From: Myxococcota bacterium
GTDB lineage: Bacteria; Myxococcota_A; UBA9160; SZUA-336
Assembly (NCBI GenBank): GCA_035498015.1
Contig: DATKAO010000112.1
Coordinates: 1-35,747, forward strand
Reading direction: 5' to 3'
Length of the DNA stretch: 35,747 bases
A model generated the notes under the pieces. That model saw nothing but the letters and a program-made list of their open reading frames with translations, had not been told where the DNA came from and searched no databases. The position numbers were made by a program, and so were the translations under genes. This document shows positions 3,801-28,374 of the stretch, piece after piece (position 1 is the first letter of the stretch; every line of letters begins with the position of its first letter).

Positions 3801-5433
3801 GCCGGTGCGTGCGCGCGTCGCCGTACTCGGTCGCGAAGTCGAGCCCGAGCTCGACCGAGGTCTCGCCCGCGTGCAAGCGCTCGAGGTGACGCACGTCGAG
3901 CACCGCCTCGGCGGCCGAGGTCACGACGCGGTAGGACTCGGGGAAGGCGTCGGCGTAGGCGTCGGCCAGCCGCAGCGCGCGGTCGCTCGGCTGGTCGGCG
4001 ACCAGCGCCCGCTCGAAGCGGTCCTCCCAGCGCTCGACCAGGAACGCGATCTCCTCCTCGAGCTTGCCGAGTCTCTCGAGGTCGAGCTCGCGGTCGCAGC
4101 CGCAGAAGAAGTTCACGAGCGCCAGGTCCTCGTCGAGGAACGAGCTGCGGTGGTCGATGTGCCGCGCCGCGTGCTGTGTCTCGAGCCAGCGGTCGATCTC
4201 CTCGCGGATCCGCTCCTCGTAGAGCTGCCGCGGCAGCGCGACGCACACGAAGAACGAGCGGTTGGTCGCGTCGGCGACCGTGGTCACTTCGAGCTTGCGG
4301 CGCTCGGCCGCGGCCACGATGCGCGACACGAGCCGTGCCACGTCCGCCTGCTCGGCGGGGAACAGAAACTCCACGGGCAGACAGTCATAGGCCTCCAGCG
4401 CGGTCTTGTAGGTGTGTGAGCCGATCTCGGCGCCGAGCCCGCCCACGATGCGCGTGCGGCGCGCGGCCAGGATCGGAATGTCCGACGGCCGCATGCGGAT
4501 CGCGCGGTGCGTGAGCAGGCCGACGAAGCGCCCGAAGCCGACCGTGCGCGCTTCGCGGTCCAGGAGCTTGACCGACACCGAGTCGAGTCGGCCGGGCCGG
4601 TGCACGGTCGAGTCACTGCGCGTCTTGTCGAAGAAGATCACGCGCTCGTCGTCGAGCCGCGCGCCCACGAGCGGTGGCGGCGGCACGTCGGCGCCCGCCT
4701 CCGTGAAGCGCGAGTCGTGCGCGCCGCGCAAGAGTCCCAGCCCGCTGCCCGACTCGAGCTCGACCTCCCAGCCCTTGCGGCCCCGGCGTGCGTCGTAGCG
4801 CCGGTAGCCCATGAACAGGAAGTTCTTGGCCTCGAGCCAGCGCAGCACCTGGGCTAGGTCGCGCGCGCGCTCGGGGCCGCCCGGCAGCACCGCCGCACAG
4901 GCTTCGAGGTTGGCGACGTGCTCGTGCAGGTGCGCGAGCATGGGCGCGTGATCGGCCACCACGCAGCGCGCGTCGGCGAGCGCGCGCTCGAGCTCCTGCT
5001 CGAGCTGCGCGCGCTCCGCCTCGTGCGCCAGCTGGCGCAGCTCGGCGTACACGTACGACTCACGCGTGCCGCCGACCGCCTCGCGGCCGAAGCGCGCGAT
5101 CGTCCCGTCGGCGTCGCGCTCGATCGCCAAGAGCGGGTGCAAGAGCAGGAGCTCGCGGCGCGCGAGCCTCCGCAGAGTGAGTCGCACCGAGTCGACGATG
5201 AACGGCTGGTCGGCGAGCAGCACCTCGACCGTGGTCCGGCCGGCGCGGTGTCCGCCGGGGCTGCCCACGCGCACGCGGATCTCGCCCGGCAGGCGCGTGG
5301 CGGTGAAGGCGGCGGCATCGATCGCCAGCTCGTGCAGCGCGTCCGCGCCGCGCCGCCGCAGCTCGGCGGGCTCGAGCGCGGCCTCGAGCTCGGCGCGAAC
5401 CAGCGCGTAGAGGGCCTCGTCCTTGGCTTCCAT
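826..5433 (-). CDS. Large (GDH-180 type) NAD-specific glutamate dehydrogenase
   Basis: Oxidatively deaminates L-glutamate to 2-oxoglutarate and ammonium with NAD+, a catabolic enzyme in the cytoplasm. The product is about 1535 residues, matching the 1500-1650 of the large bacterial class. The first ~700 residues are regulatory, ACT-like regions; the catalytic core follows, with RGGLRWSDRPEDVRSEV and MVKNGLIVPVGAKGGF near residues 790-825 carrying the substrate lysines, then HDGDDPYLVVAADKGTAHL near 865 and the Rossmann part (GGNVGLTQAARVEF, DAIHNAGG) near 1105-1140. The start MEAKDEALYAL was chosen because the frame upstream is low-complexity Arg/Ala/Pro sequence and would run into the oppositely oriented acyltransferase promoter. 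It is divergent from that gene and followed after 10 bases by tRNA-Ser. Confidence 0.95.
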   Translation of the reverse strand: MEAKDEALYALVRAELEAALEPAELRRRGADALHELAIDAAAFTATRLPGEIRVRVGSPGGHRAGRTTVEVLLADQPFIVDSVRLTLRRLARRELLLLHPLLAIERDADGTIARFGREAVGGTRESYVYAELRQLAHEAERAQLEQELERALADARCVVADHAPMLAHLHEHVANLEACAAVLPGGPERARDLAQVLRWLEAKNFLFMGYRRYDARRGRKGWEVELESGSGLGLLRGAHDSRFTEAGADVPPPPLVGARLDDERVIFFDKTRSDSTVHRPGRLDSVSVKLLDREARTVGFGRFVGLLTHRAIRMRPSDIPILAARRTRIVGGLGAEIGSHTYKTALEAYDCLPVEFLFPAEQADVARLVSRIVAAAERRKLEVTTVADATNRSFFVCVALPRQLYEERIREEIDRWLETQHAARHIDHRSSFLDEDLALVNFFCGCDRELDLERLGKLEEEIAFLVERWEDRFERALVADQPSDRALRLADAYADAFPESYRVVTSAAEAVLDVRHLERLHAGETSVELGLDFATEYGDARTHRLKIYLRERPYLTALLSVVHQFGVKVIDATSTEVRALAKPSLWIVSFRIEPMAPGAAAGEVEARALDGLRAALSGRVDSDDLNRLILSADLDWRSVDVLRAYLEFARQLGQAARGAATRDALVRWPQAARAVVQLFRARFDPELARTRDADLAEAARALAAAREPIASAAEDRVFGMLENLVQSTLRTSHYVPAAPGAPHELAFKLDSARVQGMPAPAPWVEIFVHSCELVGVHLRGGPVARGGLRWSDRPEDVRSEVLALWRTQMVKNGLIVPVGAKGGFALRRAPDDPKAARAEADRLYARFVTALLRVTDDVKAGCVTPPAGIVRHDGDDPYLVVAADKGTAHLSDVANRTSAEHGFWLGDAFASGGSNGYDHKREAITARGAWLCAQRHFAEWGRAAERDGFRAVGIGDMSGDVFGNGLLLMRSAKLVAAFDHRHVFVDPEPAPERAWEERKRLFALPRSSWADYAREAISAGGGVWERGAKRIALSPEARRALGCTAEALSGEELVRAVLRAPVDLLWNGGIGTYVKASSESHADAGDRANDAVRVDARELRARIVAEGGNVGLTQAARVEFALAGGRIDTDAIHNAGGVALSDHEVNFKILLAPLAGSELLPPAERSAVLRACAESADTAVLERCASQSLCLSLDALRAQADPERLVQVAEYLVANAELDPALERMPGREHVRARGWTRPELAVLLGYTKRLCKTRLAQAAPPAHPLLAELFQAYFPRALRERFAHELETHQLRDAITATCLVNHAVDRAGVCLVPEAVRALGVTPSEVLCAWLSADSLLGAEAARQALQSSPDSEESRLRARLAVEDAVSQAALLSLGLEGRALREPADERRRAAGLAELRAKLGGTPDLSALARALPVLWIAERASTPVARTLEVWGELGARTRIHWLLERLCQVELADGWSRIGAAALGLEMHRALAELCERELGSAARRTSRSRPSHEPTLRAVEEIAAAIDSGSRALAPLLVLSQRIRRLC

Positions 5434-21907: not shown

Positions 21908-22588
21908 ATGCAGACTTTTCGTACCCACGCGGGTTTCTCGCTGATCGAGATCATGACCGTGGTCGCGATCATCGGCATCATGACCGTGCTGGGTCTGGCG
22001 TCGCTGCGCGGCTACTCGCGGCACGAAGAGACTCGCAAGTACGCAGCTTCGATCGCCAACGTGCTGAACCAGGCGCGCTCGCAGGCGGTCACGGACGGAC
22101 GCACCACGTTCGTCGTGTTCTCGGAGCCGACCAACGGCACGCTGCCGTTCGAGGTCGGTCAGATCGCGACGATCGTGACCGACACCGACGGCGACGGCAA
22201 GATCAGCTTCGGCGACGGCATCCGCCCGATCTTCGGGCCCAGCGGCAGCCAGAGTGCCGAGATCAGCCTCTACGGCCGGCACGGCCAGAACGCGCTGAAG
22301 ACCGCGCCGATCCCGCCGGACGACCAGTCGAAGCAGATCACCGACGGCGTGATGGGCTCGCTCGACGACGGCATGACGCTGCCCAAGGACCCCGACTTCG
22401 GCGTGCCGATGGTGGTGTTCTCGTCGCGCGGCACCCCGGTGACTCTCTCCGCGCCCGACGACTGGGGCGCGGGCGCCGGTGGCGTGTACGTGACCGACAA
22501 CGACCAGATGCTGCTCGCCGTGCTGGTCGAGCCGCTGGGCGCGGTGCACACCATGGCGTGGGACGACGCCTCGCAGAGCTGGAAGTGA
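21908..22588 (+). CDS. fimT: FimT/GspH-type minor pseudopilin
   Basis: First gene of the minor pilin operon. The 226-residue prepilin has a short leader ending HAG, cleavage before FSLIEIMTVVAIIGIM, and the conserved Glu at +5 needed for pilus assembly; the hydrophobic helix spans about residues 10-32. The globular part contains a canonical 12-residue EF-hand-like loop, DTDGDGKISFGD (residues 92-103), unusual for FimT. ATG chosen because the prepilin leader is then nine residues and GGAGGCGGAG precedes it. Minor pilins initiate the type IV pilus and carry PilY1 at the tip. Confidence 0.85.
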   Translation: MQTFRTHAGFSLIEIMTVVAIIGIMTVLGLASLRGYSRHEETRKYAASIANVLNQARSQAVTDGRTTFVVFSEPTNGTLPFEVGQIATIVTDTDGDGKISFGDGIRPIFGPSGSQSAEISLYGRHGQNALKTAPIPPDDQSKQITDGVMGSLDDGMTLPKDPDFGVPMVVFSSRGTPVTLSAPDDWGAGAGGVYVTDNDQMLLAVLVEPLGAVHTMAWDDASQSWK

Positions 22589-22593
22589 CCGCC

Positions 22594-23034
22594 ATGAAGC
22601 ACACGGTCACTCGCAAGCTATCGCGCGACGAGTCGGGTTACACGCTGATCGAGGTCATGATCGCGATGGCGATCCTGGGCATCGGCCTGATGTCGATCGC
22701 GGTCGCGCAGCTCACGGCGATCCGCATGACTGCGCGCAGCAAGAACATGCAGCAGGCGATGTTCCTGGCGCGCGAGGCGATGGACGACCTCGACGCCCGG
22801 CAGCAGCCCGGCGACCTGTTCCTCTCCACCAACGCCACCACGCCCGACGCGAAGAACCCGATCCAGGTCGGCAACGACCAGGAAGACGGCACGCGCTTCA
22901 ACCGCCAGATCACGGTGACTCCGGGCGACCCCGAGGCCGGCATGGCGCGCGTGGTCGTGCAGGTGACCTGGCTGAACGCGGCGACCAGCGCCACGAACGT
23001 GGTCCAGCTCACGGCCACCAAGAGGATTCCTTGA
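22594..23034 (+). CDS. pilV: PilV-type minor pilin
   Basis: A 146-residue prepilin whose leader ends DESG; cleavage precedes YTLIEVMIAMAILGIGLMSI, with Glu at +5. The remainder (ARQQPGDLFLST, RQITVTPGDPEAGMARVVVQ, VTWLN) has the layout of the PilV/GspI family. The ATG lies 5 bases after the fimT stop; a GTG three codons earlier overlaps that stop and is an alternative start. Confidence 0.85.
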   Translation: MKHTVTRKLSRDESGYTLIEVMIAMAILGIGLMSIAVAQLTAIRMTARSKNMQQAMFLAREAMDDLDARQQPGDLFLSTNATTPDAKNPIQVGNDQEDGTRFNRQITVTPGDPEAGMARVVVQVTWLNAATSATNVVQLTATKRIP

Positions 23035-23036
23035 TC

Positions 23037-24086
23037 ATGGGCAAGCGCACTCTCTCCGCCGCGGGCTTCACGCTGATCGAGATGATGGTCGTGGTGGTCA
23101 TCCTCGGCGTGGTCACCGCTCAGCTCTTCACGGTCTTCGCCAACCAGAAGCGCGTGTTCACCAGCAACGACCGCGCGCTCGACGTGCAGGAGTCTGCGCG
23201 ACTCACTCTCGACATGATCTCGTTCGACGCGCGCATGGCCGGCTTCATGGTGCCGCCGCGCGCCGCGGTGGCGAGCATCGACGGCGGCAAGGACCACGCG
23301 GACCGGCTGTGTCTGTCCTCGAACGGCTTCGTGCCGCCCATGAACCAGCCGGCGCCCGGGCTCGAGGGGCAGATCGACGTGTACGACGGCCTGCCGGTGT
23401 CGGCGGTCAGCGCGCTGGGCGTGGTCGAGATCCCCTTGCTCGACGTCGACGGCGACGGCAACCCCGACCTGGTCGCGGGCCAGGGCGTGATCGTCGCCTC
23501 GCACACCAAGTCGTACTGCGCGCGCATCCTGAGCATCAACATCCCGGGCCCCGGCAAGTGGGACCTCACGTTCGACGTGCCGGCCGGCGAGAACGCCTTC
23601 AACTATCTCGGCGCCGACGTGACCGATATGGTCGTCGTGCCCGCGAACATCTACGAGCTCAACGAGAAGACCATGGAGCTGCGGCGCAACACGCTGCTCC
23701 TGGCTTCGCAGGTCGAGGACTTCCAGGTCGAGTTCTGGCTCGACAACCCGGGCGTCAGCGACGGCGCCGTGCGCGCGGTGACTGCGGGCGTCGGGGTCGA
23801 CGAAGGGGACAGCGAGTTTCCCGTCAACGACCTCAACAACCCCGACCCGCCCGCGGGGCCGACCGTGGCCAACAACGACGCGATCCGCCGGGTGCGCGTG
23901 AGTCTCACGGCGCGCACCGTGCGGGAAGAGCAGATCAACGCCGCTTCGGGCCACCTGCAGGGCTCGCGCCCGAAGCTGGCCAACCGCGACGGCGACCCGA
24001 CTCCGGACACGTTCCGCCGCCGCAGCTTCAGCGCGAGCATCCTGCCTCGCAACATCAACATCGGAATGGACCTGACCCAATCATGA
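23037..24086 (+). CDS. pilW: PilW-type minor pilin
   Basis: A 349-residue prepilin with leader MGKRTLSAAG and mature start FTLIEMMVVVVILGVV, Glu at +5. Large globular domain, as in PilW (QESARLTLDMISFDARMAGF near residues 51-70 is a family signature). DVDGDGNPDL at residues 136-145 is a DxDxDG calcium-type loop. The ATG was chosen over a TTG two codons earlier because AGAGGA is then at normal distance. The 3' end overlaps pilX by ATGA. Confidence 0.87.
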   Translation: MGKRTLSAAGFTLIEMMVVVVILGVVTAQLFTVFANQKRVFTSNDRALDVQESARLTLDMISFDARMAGFMVPPRAAVASIDGGKDHADRLCLSSNGFVPPMNQPAPGLEGQIDVYDGLPVSAVSALGVVEIPLLDVDGDGNPDLVAGQGVIVASHTKSYCARILSINIPGPGKWDLTFDVPAGENAFNYLGADVTDMVVVPANIYELNEKTMELRRNTLLLASQVEDFQVEFWLDNPGVSDGAVRAVTAGVGVDEGDSEFPVNDLNNPDPPAGPTVANNDAIRRVRVSLTARTVREEQINAASGHLQGSRPKLANRDGDPTPDTFRRRSFSASILPRNINIGMDLTQS

Positions 24087-24634
24087 CTCACACAAAGAAC
24101 CAGAGACTGACTCGCGCGCTGCGCGACGAGAGCGGCATGGCGCTCTTGATCTCGGTGATCGTGCTGCTGCTCATGAGCGCGCTCGCGCTCTCGGCGCTAC
24201 AGCGCGCCGGCGACGAGGCCATCGGCAGTGGCGGCTCGCGGCGCAAGGACGCGTCGCTGTACGCCGCCGAGTCCGGCCTCGCGAAGATCAAGGTCGGTCT
24301 GTTCGACCTGTACCTGTCCGGGTTCACCAGCGTCGACGCCACCAGGCTCCAGTTCTACGACCCGGCGATGGTGACCGACGCCTACGGCAACCCGATCGAG
24401 GTGAGCACCGGCAAGCCCGAGAACGGCGGTCTGCCGGCGACGCCGGCCAAGGTCGAGCCTGCGGCCGGAGCGACGCCGAAGACCCGCAAGGGCAACGACC
24501 TTCGCATCGGCGGTCACAACTCGACCAACGGCAAAGCCATGGCTTACCCGGCGGACGTCACCACGCGCGACGCCGCCAACAGCATCGGTCACATCCAGAT
24601 CCAGTACAGCGTCTCGGAGGGTGGGGGTTACTAA
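24083..24634 (+). CDS. pilX: PilX-type minor pilin
   Basis: A 183-residue protein with leader ending DESG and a mature hydrophobic helix MALLISVIVLLLMSALALSA. It lacks Glu at +5, as PilX proteins generally do. SLYAAESGLAKIK is the PilX-family segment after the helix. ATGA couples it to pilW and TAATG to pilY1. Confidence 0.83.
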   Translation: MTHTKNQRLTRALRDESGMALLISVIVLLLMSALALSALQRAGDEAIGSGGSRRKDASLYAAESGLAKIKVGLFDLYLSGFTSVDATRLQFYDPAMVTDAYGNPIEVSTGKPENGGLPATPAKVEPAAGATPKTRKGNDLRIGGHNSTNGKAMAYPADVTTRDAANSIGHIQIQYSVSEGGGY

Positions 24635-27600
24635 TGGCCTCGAAGCGTCTCGTCCGCATCCTGTCGCTCTTCGCAGCGCTCGCGCTCGCGCGCGAGGTCC
24701 GCGCGCAGGCCGGTGACCTCGACATCCTGTCGCGCACCGTCCCGCCGATCGTCATGCTGCAGTTCGATACCTCGGGCTCGATGAAGAACATCATCCTGCC
24801 CGACGCGTATCTCACTGCGCGCGGCGCCAACTATCCGACCACCATCACCTGGTGGAACAAGGCGAACGACGTCACGAACTTCCCGGCGTCGTTCCTGGCC
24901 AGCTCGAGCACGTACTACTGCGGCACGACCTCGGGCTGCACCACGACCTACGCGACGAAGCTCTACACGGGGTCGGCGGAGGACTTCCGCCCGACCTGCC
25001 AGATCTTCGCGGCCACCGCGGACGTGAACGCGAACAAGTCGGTGTGCGTCCCGCAGACGAACCCCACCGCCGCGGGCTGCAACAACAACGGCACCAACAT
25101 TCCCAATGACGACCAGGACGACAGCAACCCGCAGGGCGGCTCGGCCACGATCAAGTGCTGGAACATGCCGCTGGGCTGCACCAACGTGCCCGCGGGCTGG
25201 ACCTGCTCGACCACCACGCGCGCGCGCAAGAAGACCAGCACCACGACGGTGAGCCAGCCTTACACCGTGATCACTGCGCCCGACGTGTCGTTTACCAGCA
25301 CGACCGACTATCCGCCCAACTACCTGTGGTGGATCGTGCAGCAGATCTACCTGGGTCACACGCCTGTGCCGTTCATCGCCGAGGACCGCAACGGCGCCGG
25401 CAAGGACGCGATCACCCAGCTCGTGAACAACGTCAACATCGACGGCCAGCCCGACCGCGTGAAGTTCGGTCTCTCGCGCTACGACTCGGGCTCGAACGGC
25501 GGCTACACCGTCGTGGTGCCCGACCTGAACAACAAGGCGACGCTGCTGTCCACGCTGGCCTCCTTGCCGGCGAGCGGCGGCACGCCGCTGTCCGAGACGC
25601 TGGTCGACACCGCGCGCTATCTCGCGGGCGCCGACAAGCTCGGCAAGTACCCCCAGTACAACCGCAGCCTGACCGGCGCGACGGTCGCCGCGTCTTCGGC
25701 TCCGCAGAGCCCGGTCACGAGCTCGTGCGAGAAGCTGTTCATCGTGGCGATCACCGACGGTCTGCCGACCAGCGACAACAACGACCACTACACGCACTCC
25801 GCGCCCAACGGCGGTGACTCGTTCGCGCAGACCTTCCCGTCGCCGTACACCAGCGACGGCAGCTACCTCGACGACGTCGCGAAGAAGCTCTACGCGACCG
25901 ACCTGCGCACGACCCTGTCGGGCAACCAGAACGTGATCACCTACACGGTCGGCTTCACGGTCGCCTCGACGATCCTGCAGAACGCCGCGACCCAGGGTCA
26001 CGGCCTCTACTTCCAGTCGAACAACGCCAACGACCTGGCGGACTCGCTGACCGGTGCGATCACCGACATCATCGCGCGCAACACCACGCTGACTTCGGCC
26101 ACCGTGCCCGCTACGCGCAGTGCGTTCGGCAACGGCTTCTACACGGCCTACTTCGTGCCCAGCGGACACAAGCCGGTGTGGCCGGGTCACCTGGAGGCCT
26201 ACACGCTGTCGGCCGACCTGCAGGTGCTCGACGACAACAACAACCCGGCGATCGACCCGGTCACGAACCTGTTCTTCGAGCCGCGTCACCCGCACTGGGA
26301 TGCCGCGAACACGATGATCCAGGACTACAACAGCCGGACGCTCTACACCACCAAGGGCACCACGCGCATTCCGTTCACGGACGCGAACCTGGTGGATCCG
26401 AACCAGGTGACTGCCAGCGCGACCAACCTCACCACGGTGATGTTGGGCCTGGTCGACTCCGACAAGGACCGCTACCCGCAGCCGCGCACCGACGCGTCGA
26501 TCACCGATCCGAACGACCCGAACGGCGCGGTGTCCTACAAGCGCCTGGGCAGCTCGATCGTGAACTGGGTGACCGGCAAGGACGCCTTCCGCGAGGACGG
26601 CAACGATCCCAACGCGGTGCGGCCGTTCGTGTTCGGCGACGTGTTCCACTCGAGCCCGGTCGTGGTGGGCCCGCCGCCCGGCACCATGCGCTTCGAGACC
26701 GGCTTCGGGCCAGTGACTGACCCGAACAGCTTCATGGGCAAGTTCGCCCACCGCGAACGCGTGCTCTACGTCGGTGCGAACGACGGCTTCCTGCACGGCT
26801 TCCGCGCAGGCACCTTCGTCGACCCCAGCGCCAGCGTCGTGGGCGACGAGTACTACACGCCGGGCACCGGTCACGAGGTCTTCGGCTACGTGCCGGGGTT
26901 CCTCCTGCCCAAGCTGAAGCTCCTGCCGCGCGACAACATCGCGAAGCAGTACTTCGTCGACGGCGAGCCGACCGCGGCCGACGCGTGGATCGACTACAAC
27001 AGCGACAACGTGAAGGACCCGACCGACTGGACGACCGTGCTACTCACTCCGATGCGCGAAGGCGGCGCGGGCATCCTGGCCCTCGACGTCACTGACCCGA
27101 ACGCGTCGAGTGGCAACCACGGTCCGTACCCGCGGCTCATGTGGGAGTTCACGAACGCGAGCCTCGGCCAGACCTGGTCGCGCCCGATCGTCACGCGCGT
27201 GCGCGTGAAGGCGGCGGCCGGCACGGGCGACCACTGCGGCGTCGGCTACGACTGCATCGAGCAGTGGGTGGCGATCTTCGCCGCGGGCTACACCAACGAA
27301 GGCAACCCGAACATGGGCGTCTACGTGAGTGACCCGAACTCGCCGAGCTATGCGGCGGGCAAGGGCATCTTCATCGTGCGCCTGAAGGACGGCTCGGTCC
27401 TGGCGCAGCTCAAGCCCACGGCCACGGGCACGCTGTCCAACATGAAGTACGCGATGGCGGCAGAGCCCTCGGTGCTCGACCTCGACGAGGATGGATTCGC
27501 CGACGTGATCTACGAAGGCGACCTCGGCGGCCAGCTGTGGAAGTGGGACATCTCCGCGGTCGGCGTGCTGACCGGCGGCGTGGTGCCCACGACCGTGTGG

Positions 27601-28374
27601 CCCGCGGGCATCCTGTTCCAGGCTCCCGTGGCGACGGTCGCCGCGGGCGTGAAGCACTACCACAGCATCTTCACAGGTGCGGGTGCTGCGATCATGAAGG
27701 TGAAGGGTCAGGACGTGCTGACGCTGACGTTTGCGAGCGGCGAGCGCGCCGATCTCGGCTATGCCGGTGTGGCCGCGAGCGACCCGAACGCGATCACGGG
27801 CCAGTACGACGACAACAACCGGTTCTGGGTGGTCCAGGACACGACGCCGACCGGCGCGGGTGCGTTCCCGTCGAACCTGCCCATCTACGAGACCGCGTCG
27901 AGCCCGCACGACGGACTCACTGACATCACTTACACGGATCGCGACGACAACCCGGACGACAAGGGCTACTTCTTCCGGATCCCGAACGGTGAGAAGTTCA
28001 TGACCGACATGATCATCTTCGAGGGCGTCGTGCTGACCCTCTCGTACCTGCCGGATGCCGCGGGCGCCGGTGCGGACGGGAGCTGCGCGCTCGGTGGTGA
28101 CACGCTCGAGTACGCCTGGACGCTGGCCAATGGCGTGGGCGTGCTCACCGGCACCAACGGCTCGAGCGGCTCGGGTGGAAGCGTGACGACGGTGCGCAGT
28201 CAGCCGCTGGGCAACGGCGCGCCGACCAACCCGCGAATCACGGTCTCGAAGGGCTCCGACGGCACCGTGGTGATGAACTCGACGGCGCAGACCTCGATGG
28301 GTGAGGTCCAGCACCTGGGCGGTCTGCCGACCGTCGACCCGGTGAAGCCAGTCTTCTGGCGACAGGAGTTCTGA
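24634..28374 (+). CDS. pilY1: PilY1-type pilus tip adhesin
   Basis: A 1246-residue exported protein (signal peptide ending REVRAQA). The N-terminal half is a von Willebrand A-like domain: MIDAS motif DTSGS at residues 45-49 and the companion IVAITDGLPTSDNND near 368-382. The C-terminal half is the PilY1 beta-propeller: RERVLYVGANDGFLHGFRAG near 706, EGGAGILALDVTDP near 810, and the calcium loop D949-L-D951-E-D953-G-x-x-D957 followed by VIY and GDLGGQLWKWD. PilY1 sits on the minor-pilin complex, takes part in adhesion and surface sensing, and its calcium site controls retraction. The gene starts inside the pilX stop and is followed by a strong terminator, ending the operon. Confidence 0.94.
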   Translation: MASKRLVRILSLFAALALAREVRAQAGDLDILSRTVPPIVMLQFDTSGSMKNIILPDAYLTARGANYPTTITWWNKANDVTNFPASFLASSSTYYCGTTSGCTTTYATKLYTGSAEDFRPTCQIFAATADVNANKSVCVPQTNPTAAGCNNNGTNIPNDDQDDSNPQGGSATIKCWNMPLGCTNVPAGWTCSTTTRARKKTSTTTVSQPYTVITAPDVSFTSTTDYPPNYLWWIVQQIYLGHTPVPFIAEDRNGAGKDAITQLVNNVNIDGQPDRVKFGLSRYDSGSNGGYTVVVPDLNNKATLLSTLASLPASGGTPLSETLVDTARYLAGADKLGKYPQYNRSLTGATVAASSAPQSPVTSSCEKLFIVAITDGLPTSDNNDHYTHSAPNGGDSFAQTFPSPYTSDGSYLDDVAKKLYATDLRTTLSGNQNVITYTVGFTVASTILQNAATQGHGLYFQSNNANDLADSLTGAITDIIARNTTLTSATVPATRSAFGNGFYTAYFVPSGHKPVWPGHLEAYTLSADLQVLDDNNNPAIDPVTNLFFEPRHPHWDAANTMIQDYNSRTLYTTKGTTRIPFTDANLVDPNQVTASATNLTTVMLGLVDSDKDRYPQPRTDASITDPNDPNGAVSYKRLGSSIVNWVTGKDAFREDGNDPNAVRPFVFGDVFHSSPVVVGPPPGTMRFETGFGPVTDPNSFMGKFAHRERVLYVGANDGFLHGFRAGTFVDPSASVVGDEYYTPGTGHEVFGYVPGFLLPKLKLLPRDNIAKQYFVDGEPTAADAWIDYNSDNVKDPTDWTTVLLTPMREGGAGILALDVTDPNASSGNHGPYPRLMWEFTNASLGQTWSRPIVTRVRVKAAAGTGDHCGVGYDCIEQWVAIFAAGYTNEGNPNMGVYVSDPNSPSYAAGKGIFIVRLKDGSVLAQLKPTATGTLSNMKYAMAAEPSVLDLDEDGFADVIYEGDLGGQLWKWDISAVGVLTGGVVPTTVWPAGILFQAPVATVAAGVKHYHSIFTGAGAAIMKVKGQDVLTLTFASGERADLGYAGVAASDPNAITGQYDDNNRFWVVQDTTPTGAGAFPSNLPIYETASSPHDGLTDITYTDRDDNPDDKGYFFRIPNGEKFMTDMIIFEGVVLTLSYLPDAAGAGADGSCALGGDTLEYAWTLANGVGVLTGTNGSSGSGGSVTTVRSQPLGNGAPTNPRITVSKGSDGTVVMNSTAQTSMGEVQHLGGLPTVDPVKPVFWRQEF

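Follow-up and report, generated by a model that had tools for sequence, protein, structure and literature searches.

Calcium sites have been described in the tip adhesin of type IV pili and in the pseudopilins of the type II secretion system (T2SS). The C-terminal blade of PilY1/PilC carries a Dx[DN]xDGxxD calcium site (PDB 3HX6; PMC3123361, PMC13190605), which forms a loop between strands (PMC8833165). The cluster 1 tip complex of Myxococcus xanthus, which includes TfcP, is likewise built of minor pilins and PilY1, and its whole-tip abundance is calcium dependent: added calcium strongly raised the minor pilins and PilY1.1 in purified pili, an effect traced to PilY1.1 (PMC8833165). In the T2SS, calcium braces the pilin-fold head of the major pseudopilin GspG/PulG and of the minor pseudopilin GspK/XcpX, and Ca2+ binding by the latter was measured by isothermal titration calorimetry (PMC6211770). 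The GspG site corresponds to the place of a disulfide in type IV pilins (PMC5131608; PMC4376143). Here we describe acidic, calcium-type loops in the minor pilins FimT and PilW of a Myxococcota bacterium (assembly GCA_035498015.1). The stretch analyzed (hereafter, the window; 35,747 nucleotides) is the entire contig DATKAO010000112.1 and holds a minor-pilin operon of a type IVa pilus at 21908-28374, in the order fimT-pilV-pilW-pilX-pilY1. In contrast to the T2SS pseudopilins, the candidate sites lie in GspH-type (FimT) and GspJ-type (PilW) subunits, and they differ from the M. xanthus case, in which the calcium effect was traced to PilY1.1.

Conserved acidic loops in FimT and PilW

The original prediction placed calcium-type loops at FimT residues 92-103, PilW 136-145 and PilY1 949-957, and all three were found at these positions (Table 1). 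DxDxDG loops were present in three of the five operon proteins, each with Asp or Asn at positions 1, 3 and 5 and Gly at position 6, while a search of PilV and PilX of the window for the motif returned none. With a rough gene caller, all three called operon genes carried the motif, compared with none of the remaining 21 genes called in the window (Fisher, P = 0.0005); as this caller missed PilV and PilX, which are motif free, the operon figure is 3/5 and not 3/3. Among non-pilus proteins in the loci of relatives, counted with pilus-like proteins left out, the motif occurred in 25 of 701 (3.6%). This count supersedes a cruder one (109/727) that was swollen by false frames and pilus proteins. Extraction of PilX from relatives gave 11 rows, at least two of them not PilX, and none had the motif.

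Conservation was followed in class alignments of PilY1 (A1, 21 rows), FimT (A2, 39 rows) and PilW (A3, 40 rows). Profile matches below 150 bits were dropped, as were matches that lacked a recognized prepilin start (two different ones for FimT and two for PilW, each present in two loci). A relative of the same genus (L032) stands outside the rows of A2 and A3 and is described separately. The class of the window is named via its relatives only; their loci, collected by a PilY1 propeller search, come from metagenome-assembled genomes that for the most part were submitted under Myxococcota, Myxococcales or Deltaproteobacteria.

The FimT rows were only 23 to 37% identical to FimT of the window. Position 1 of the loop was Asp in 39/39 rows, one of eight invariant residues, and position 12 was acidic throughout (Glu in 35, Asp in 4). 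Position 5 was Asp, Asn or Ser in all rows, position 9 was Asp in 32 and position 11 was Gly in 32. The FimT loop thus sits on a class-wide site, D-x-[DN]-x-[DN]-x-x-I-D-x-G-E. Further FimT proteins of the window's family (DDDGDSRVTAAD from the same genus, DIDADWTETAVD, DLDGSFTISTGD and DDNNNWQQDPGE) and FimT-like paralogues (DVDHSYSITDGD from the window's own genome, DRDASYSVTPAD, DVDGSMTISAGD and DVDRTFDQTPPD) retained Asp at position 1 and Asp or Asn at position 3, and were acidic at position 12 or close to it. Position 5 varied among Asp, Asn, Ser and Thr, position 6 was aromatic, Met or Ser, and the window loop was the most canonical of the set.

PilW site A had its last Asp in 40/40 rows, D1 in 37 (the other three being gapped), D/N3 in 35 and D/N5 in 39. 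Its DxDxDGxxD spacing is identical to that of the PilY1/PilC calcium blade, but PilW and FimT are pilins and not beta-propellers. A second site, B, lies about 90 residues past site A, after VEDLQ. Site B had D1 in 40/40 rows, D/N3 in 38, D/N5 in 40, D9 in 32 and E/D12 in 40; across the class, no other loop of the operon is as EF-hand-like. In the window, its third residue is Pro and the loop contains an insertion, and the predicted local distance difference test (pLDDT) values were 44 to 58 across most of the loop. With site B enlarged and altered in this way, PilW of the window probably retains a single site, compared with two in most of the class. The same degeneracy explains why site B was missing from the original prediction. 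When the PDB was searched with the sequence profiles, mostly the pilin N-terminus was matched; calmodulin-like 2b1u aligned over PilW site B with an E value of 0.11.

The PilY1 loop at 949-957 is, by sequence and by its place in the PF05567 propeller, the known calcium blade. It keeps the DxDxDGxxD pattern, and D1, D5 and D9 are each present in 21/21 rows of A1.

A co-varying cysteine pair in FimT

Where the window has Gly at position 6 of the FimT loop, Cys is common in relatives. This loop Cys and a Cys in a downstream column were fully concordant, with 29 rows having both and 10 having neither. In no row of A2 did the downstream-column Cys occur unless the loop Cys was present; a further row, L153, carries two cysteines at other places. 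When mapped on a tree built from the partner PilW proteins (37 shared rows), each cysteine trait changed three times, concordantly each time. The pair would fit a disulfide tying the loop to the head, as though FimT could be braced by either a disulfide or calcium. In the Cys-type loops, positions 1, 9 and 12 are for the most part still acidic, so these loops may bind calcium as well.

Placement of the loops in predicted structures

DxDxDG motifs usually sit in loops between strands. Structure prediction, which had been proposed as a check, placed the FimT and PilW loops between beta strands. The AlphaFold2 model of FimT (39 rows; mean pLDDT 84.7) has the loop in a beta-hairpin between mature strands 77-83 and 96-101, with block pLDDT of 95 and 92. 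It has the FimU/GspH fold, matching Pseudomonas aeruginosa FimU 4ipu with Z 11.2 over 126 residues (root mean square deviation [rmsd] 2.7) and 4dq9 with Z 10.1 (VIA-align). For PilW, the model (from 40 rows) has a mean pLDDT of 81.1 and places site A between mature strands 120-124 and 141-145 (block pLDDT 81 and 88). This model resembles Thermus TTHA1219 5g23 (Z 13.7 over 151 residues, rmsd 2.9) and XcpW 5vtm (Z 8.9; XcpW/EpsJ about 9).

Comparison with proteins outside the class

The FimT and PilW models share their folds with P. aeruginosa FimU (4IPU), EpsH, TTHA1219 and XcpW/EpsJ. No calcium site in any of these came up in the accessible literature searched, a comparison made without aligning their loops. 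Likewise, no calcium site in FimT/FimU or PilW was found in that literature, which was largely without subscription papers. The lone near-case comes from Acidithiobacillus pilins, in which the N-terminal Glu5 was modeled in contact with Ca2+, at a different place (PMC6322766).

By pattern search, the loop was present in 0 of 12 FimT of other Myxococcota families (L199-L210). It was also absent from five FimT-like prepilins of Geobacteraceae loci (L155, L158) and from GspH and GspJ of Escherichia coli K-12. These 12 Myxococcota FimT, the five Geobacteraceae prepilins and E. coli K-12 GspH rule out the loop as a general GspH/FimT feature (gammaproteobacterial FimT/FimU were not compared by sequence). 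A permissive 12-residue pattern was matched in two of 11 out-of-class PilW proteins; on inspection by eye, neither match fell at the class site. Six of the 11 had FDC at the place of site B (by eye), i.e., a Cys near the site.

Operon annotation and neighboring features

Gene names agreed among Pfam, NCBIfam and fold comparison, with the curated PilW and PilV models below their cutoffs. FimT is a GspH/FimT protein by PF07963 (22.8 bits; cutoff, 21.2) and PF12019 (24.8 bits; cutoff, 21). A Pfam GspH search across the phylum matched in 3 of 237 genomes at an E value of 1e-6. PilW scored 27 bits with PF07963 and 15.4 bits with the curated PF16074, below the cutoff of 26; its assignment as PilW/GspJ follows from the prepilin N-terminus, the operon position and the GspJ-like fold.

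Table 1. Genes and loops of the minor-pilin operon (window positions)
Feature	Positions	Strand	Basis and remarks
fimT/fimU (GspH-type minor pilin), 226 aa	21908..22588	+	ATG 21908; N_methyl and GspH Pfam over cutoff; AlphaFold2 model
pilV (GspI-type minor pilin)	22594..23034	+	N_methyl over cutoff; TIGR02523 partial, below cutoff; without DxDxDG loop
pilW (GspJ-type minor pilin), 349 aa	23037..24086	+	ATG 23037; N_methyl over cutoff
pilX (GspK-type minor pilin)	24083..24634	+	PilX_N Pfam barely over cutoff; without motif
pilY1 (tip adhesin), 1246 aa	24634..28374	+	ATG 24634; PF05567 E 5.6e-17, 62.2 bits (cutoff 28.1)
FimT loop, D92-D103, DTDGDGKISFGD	22181..22216	+	complete 12-residue EF-hand-like spacing; sequence; A2 conservation; beta-hairpin in model
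PilW site A, D136-D144, DVDGDGNPD	23442..23468	+	sequence; A3 (residues 136-145, DVDGDGNPDL, 23442-23471)
PilW site B remnant, D236 to E260	23742..23816	+	class-wide EF-hand-like loop (A3); in the window enlarged, position-3 ligand lost
PilY1 calcium loop, D949-D957, DLDEDGFAD	27478..27504	+	D1, D5, D9 conserved in A1
PilY1 N-terminal DxSxS, DTSGS, residues 45-49	24766..24780	+	regex only

A second FimT-like prepilin of the same genome (321 aa mature), the source of DVDHSYSITDGD, was found in a frame from about base 4973 of another contig (L191, G000:C114); the 11 kb examined there lacked a PilV- or PilW-like prepilin. The minor-pilin genes of L036/L080 and L067/L122 lie on the strand opposite pilY1 and not upstream in the same direction, and those of G006, G007 and G009 are located on a contig other than that of pilY1. 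One genome of the same family (G004) has three PilY1 genes (contigs C24, C39 and C54; loci L038-L040). Two further features were seen in PilY1 of the window: the DTSGS at residues 45-49, which we take to resemble a metal-ion-dependent adhesion site, and a DxNxDNxxD match (DYNSDNVKD, residues 787-795, 26992-27018) that aligned relatives do not have. Rfam and tRNA scans of the window identified one tRNA-Ser.

Proposed calcium bracing and alternative explanations

We infer that the loops of FimT and PilW bind calcium in a structural role, stabilizing the minor pilins beneath PilY1, and we put the probability of this at just under 60%. As the acidic skeleton is conserved and the loops fall between strands, calcium stabilization is plausible, and M. 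xanthus provides a precedent (PMC8833165). The original prediction, that the whole tip complex may be calcium stabilized or calcium switched, can thus be retained in its first half; for switching of FimT and PilW, no sign of a conformational or regulatory role was seen. Absence of the loops from close orthologues, which would have spoken against the proposal, was mostly not encountered. The acidic skeleton is kept class-wide in both proteins, and the loops mark old acidic sites.

Several observations weigh against calcium bracing. In the same-genus relative L032, both loops are weakened, with Gly6 replaced by Ser in FimT (DDDGDSRVTAAD) and with DIDGSAPAVD at PilW site A (D5 replaced by Ser, Gly6 lost); its site B is likewise broken (DNAGAPNGVQDGDAE). 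EF-hand and Dx[DN]xDG loops almost always have Gly6. Across orthologues it was found in 19/21 PilY1 rows, 31/40 rows at PilW site A and 23/40 at site B, but in only 5/39 FimT rows, with Cys in 29; other members of the window's family have W, F, Y, M or S. This refines the original description of a full EF-hand-like loop in FimT. Moreover, 30 of the 39 FimT loops exceed 12 residues, being 15 to 19 long. The Pfam EF-hand model PF00036 reached 11 bits on FimT (cutoff, 25.4; E value, 0.35), so the loop is EF-hand-like rather than a member of the EF-hand family, and an FG-GAP Pfam match was also below cutoff. Both models are metal free, and loop placement was read from strands and pLDDT. The cysteine co-variation comes down to three changes (sign test, P = 0.25), a number of pairs that cannot reach significance. 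A compact full loop accompanied Cys loss in 6/10 rows compared with 3/29 (Fisher, P = 0.004), but this association was not upheld on the tree, and the stronger claim that the two go together was abandoned. Finally, the effect of calcium on the minor pilins of M. xanthus may act through PilY1 alone.

Some of these observations would suit a metal-free role, in which the conserved acids are turn or interface residues (Asx turns or salt bridges to a neighboring pilin) and the perfect DTDGDG of the window is just one of the forms that a conserved acidic hairpin can take. Position 6 of FimT, unconserved and often Cys or aromatic, and the range of loop lengths from 12 to 19 residues both point in this direction. 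However, the conserved positions in FimT and PilW site B coincide with calcium-ligand positions (1, 5, 12 and mostly 9), site A has the PilY1 spacing, and a neutral turn would have no need of this kind of pattern at several places in a single operon. We consider a metal-free role doubtful. Origin of the FimT and PilW motifs by chance in Asp-rich proteins of a GC-rich genome is very improbable and was rejected. Shuffling produced D.[DN].[DN]G anywhere in the protein with a probability of 0.017 for FimT, 0.046 for PilW and 0.147 for PilY1, and the conservation at fixed alignment columns across the class, like the low background count, is not what composition would give.

A calcium switch, with FimT, PilW and PilY1 loading and unloading jointly and so controlling extension, retraction or adhesion, would make sense of calcium-type loops in three subunits of one complex, and for P. 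aeruginosa PilY1 a role as a switch regulated by calcium has been put forward (PMC13190605). In other species, however, PilY1/PilC calcium mutants stay piliated, with effects on piliation that differ between species (PMC4471445), and in M. xanthus calcium stimulates pilus formation and does not counter retraction (PMC8833165). No result of our analysis bears on switching, and we regard a whole-tip switch as unlikely. An exchange with a disulfide would suggest a permanent brace, and the recurrence of the loops across this uncultured group indicates that calcium probably serves the tip as a brace and not as a switch.

Under calcium bracing, each loop would wrap one Ca2+ in the periplasm and thereby pin an exposed turn of the pilin head, namely, the FimT hairpin and, in PilW, the loop preceding the strand at mature 141-145. 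The pinned minor pilins would then fold, withstand proteolysis and pack beneath calcium-loaded PilY1. In FimT, the metal would share or replace the job of the putative disulfide that seems to link the same loop to the downstream Cys in most relatives; acting alone or alongside it, the brace would stabilize the tip complex under PilY1.

Implications for type IVa pili

A more far-reaching view, which we offer tentatively, is that the type IVa tip in this uncultured Myxococcota class is braced by calcium at multiple sites, a single one each in FimT and PilY1 and as many as two in PilW. Calcium and disulfides would then be interchangeable as braces of the minor pilins, and assembly of the entire tip would be gated by external calcium. 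In the accessible literature consulted, the calcium dependence of type IVa pili was traced to PilY1. If the minor pilins bind calcium too, the calcium-stabilized tip of Myxococcus would gain a further direct explanation in this class. The choice between calcium and disulfide that separates T2SS pseudopilins from type IV pilins would then also occur within one minor-pilin family, where it would be testable residue by residue.

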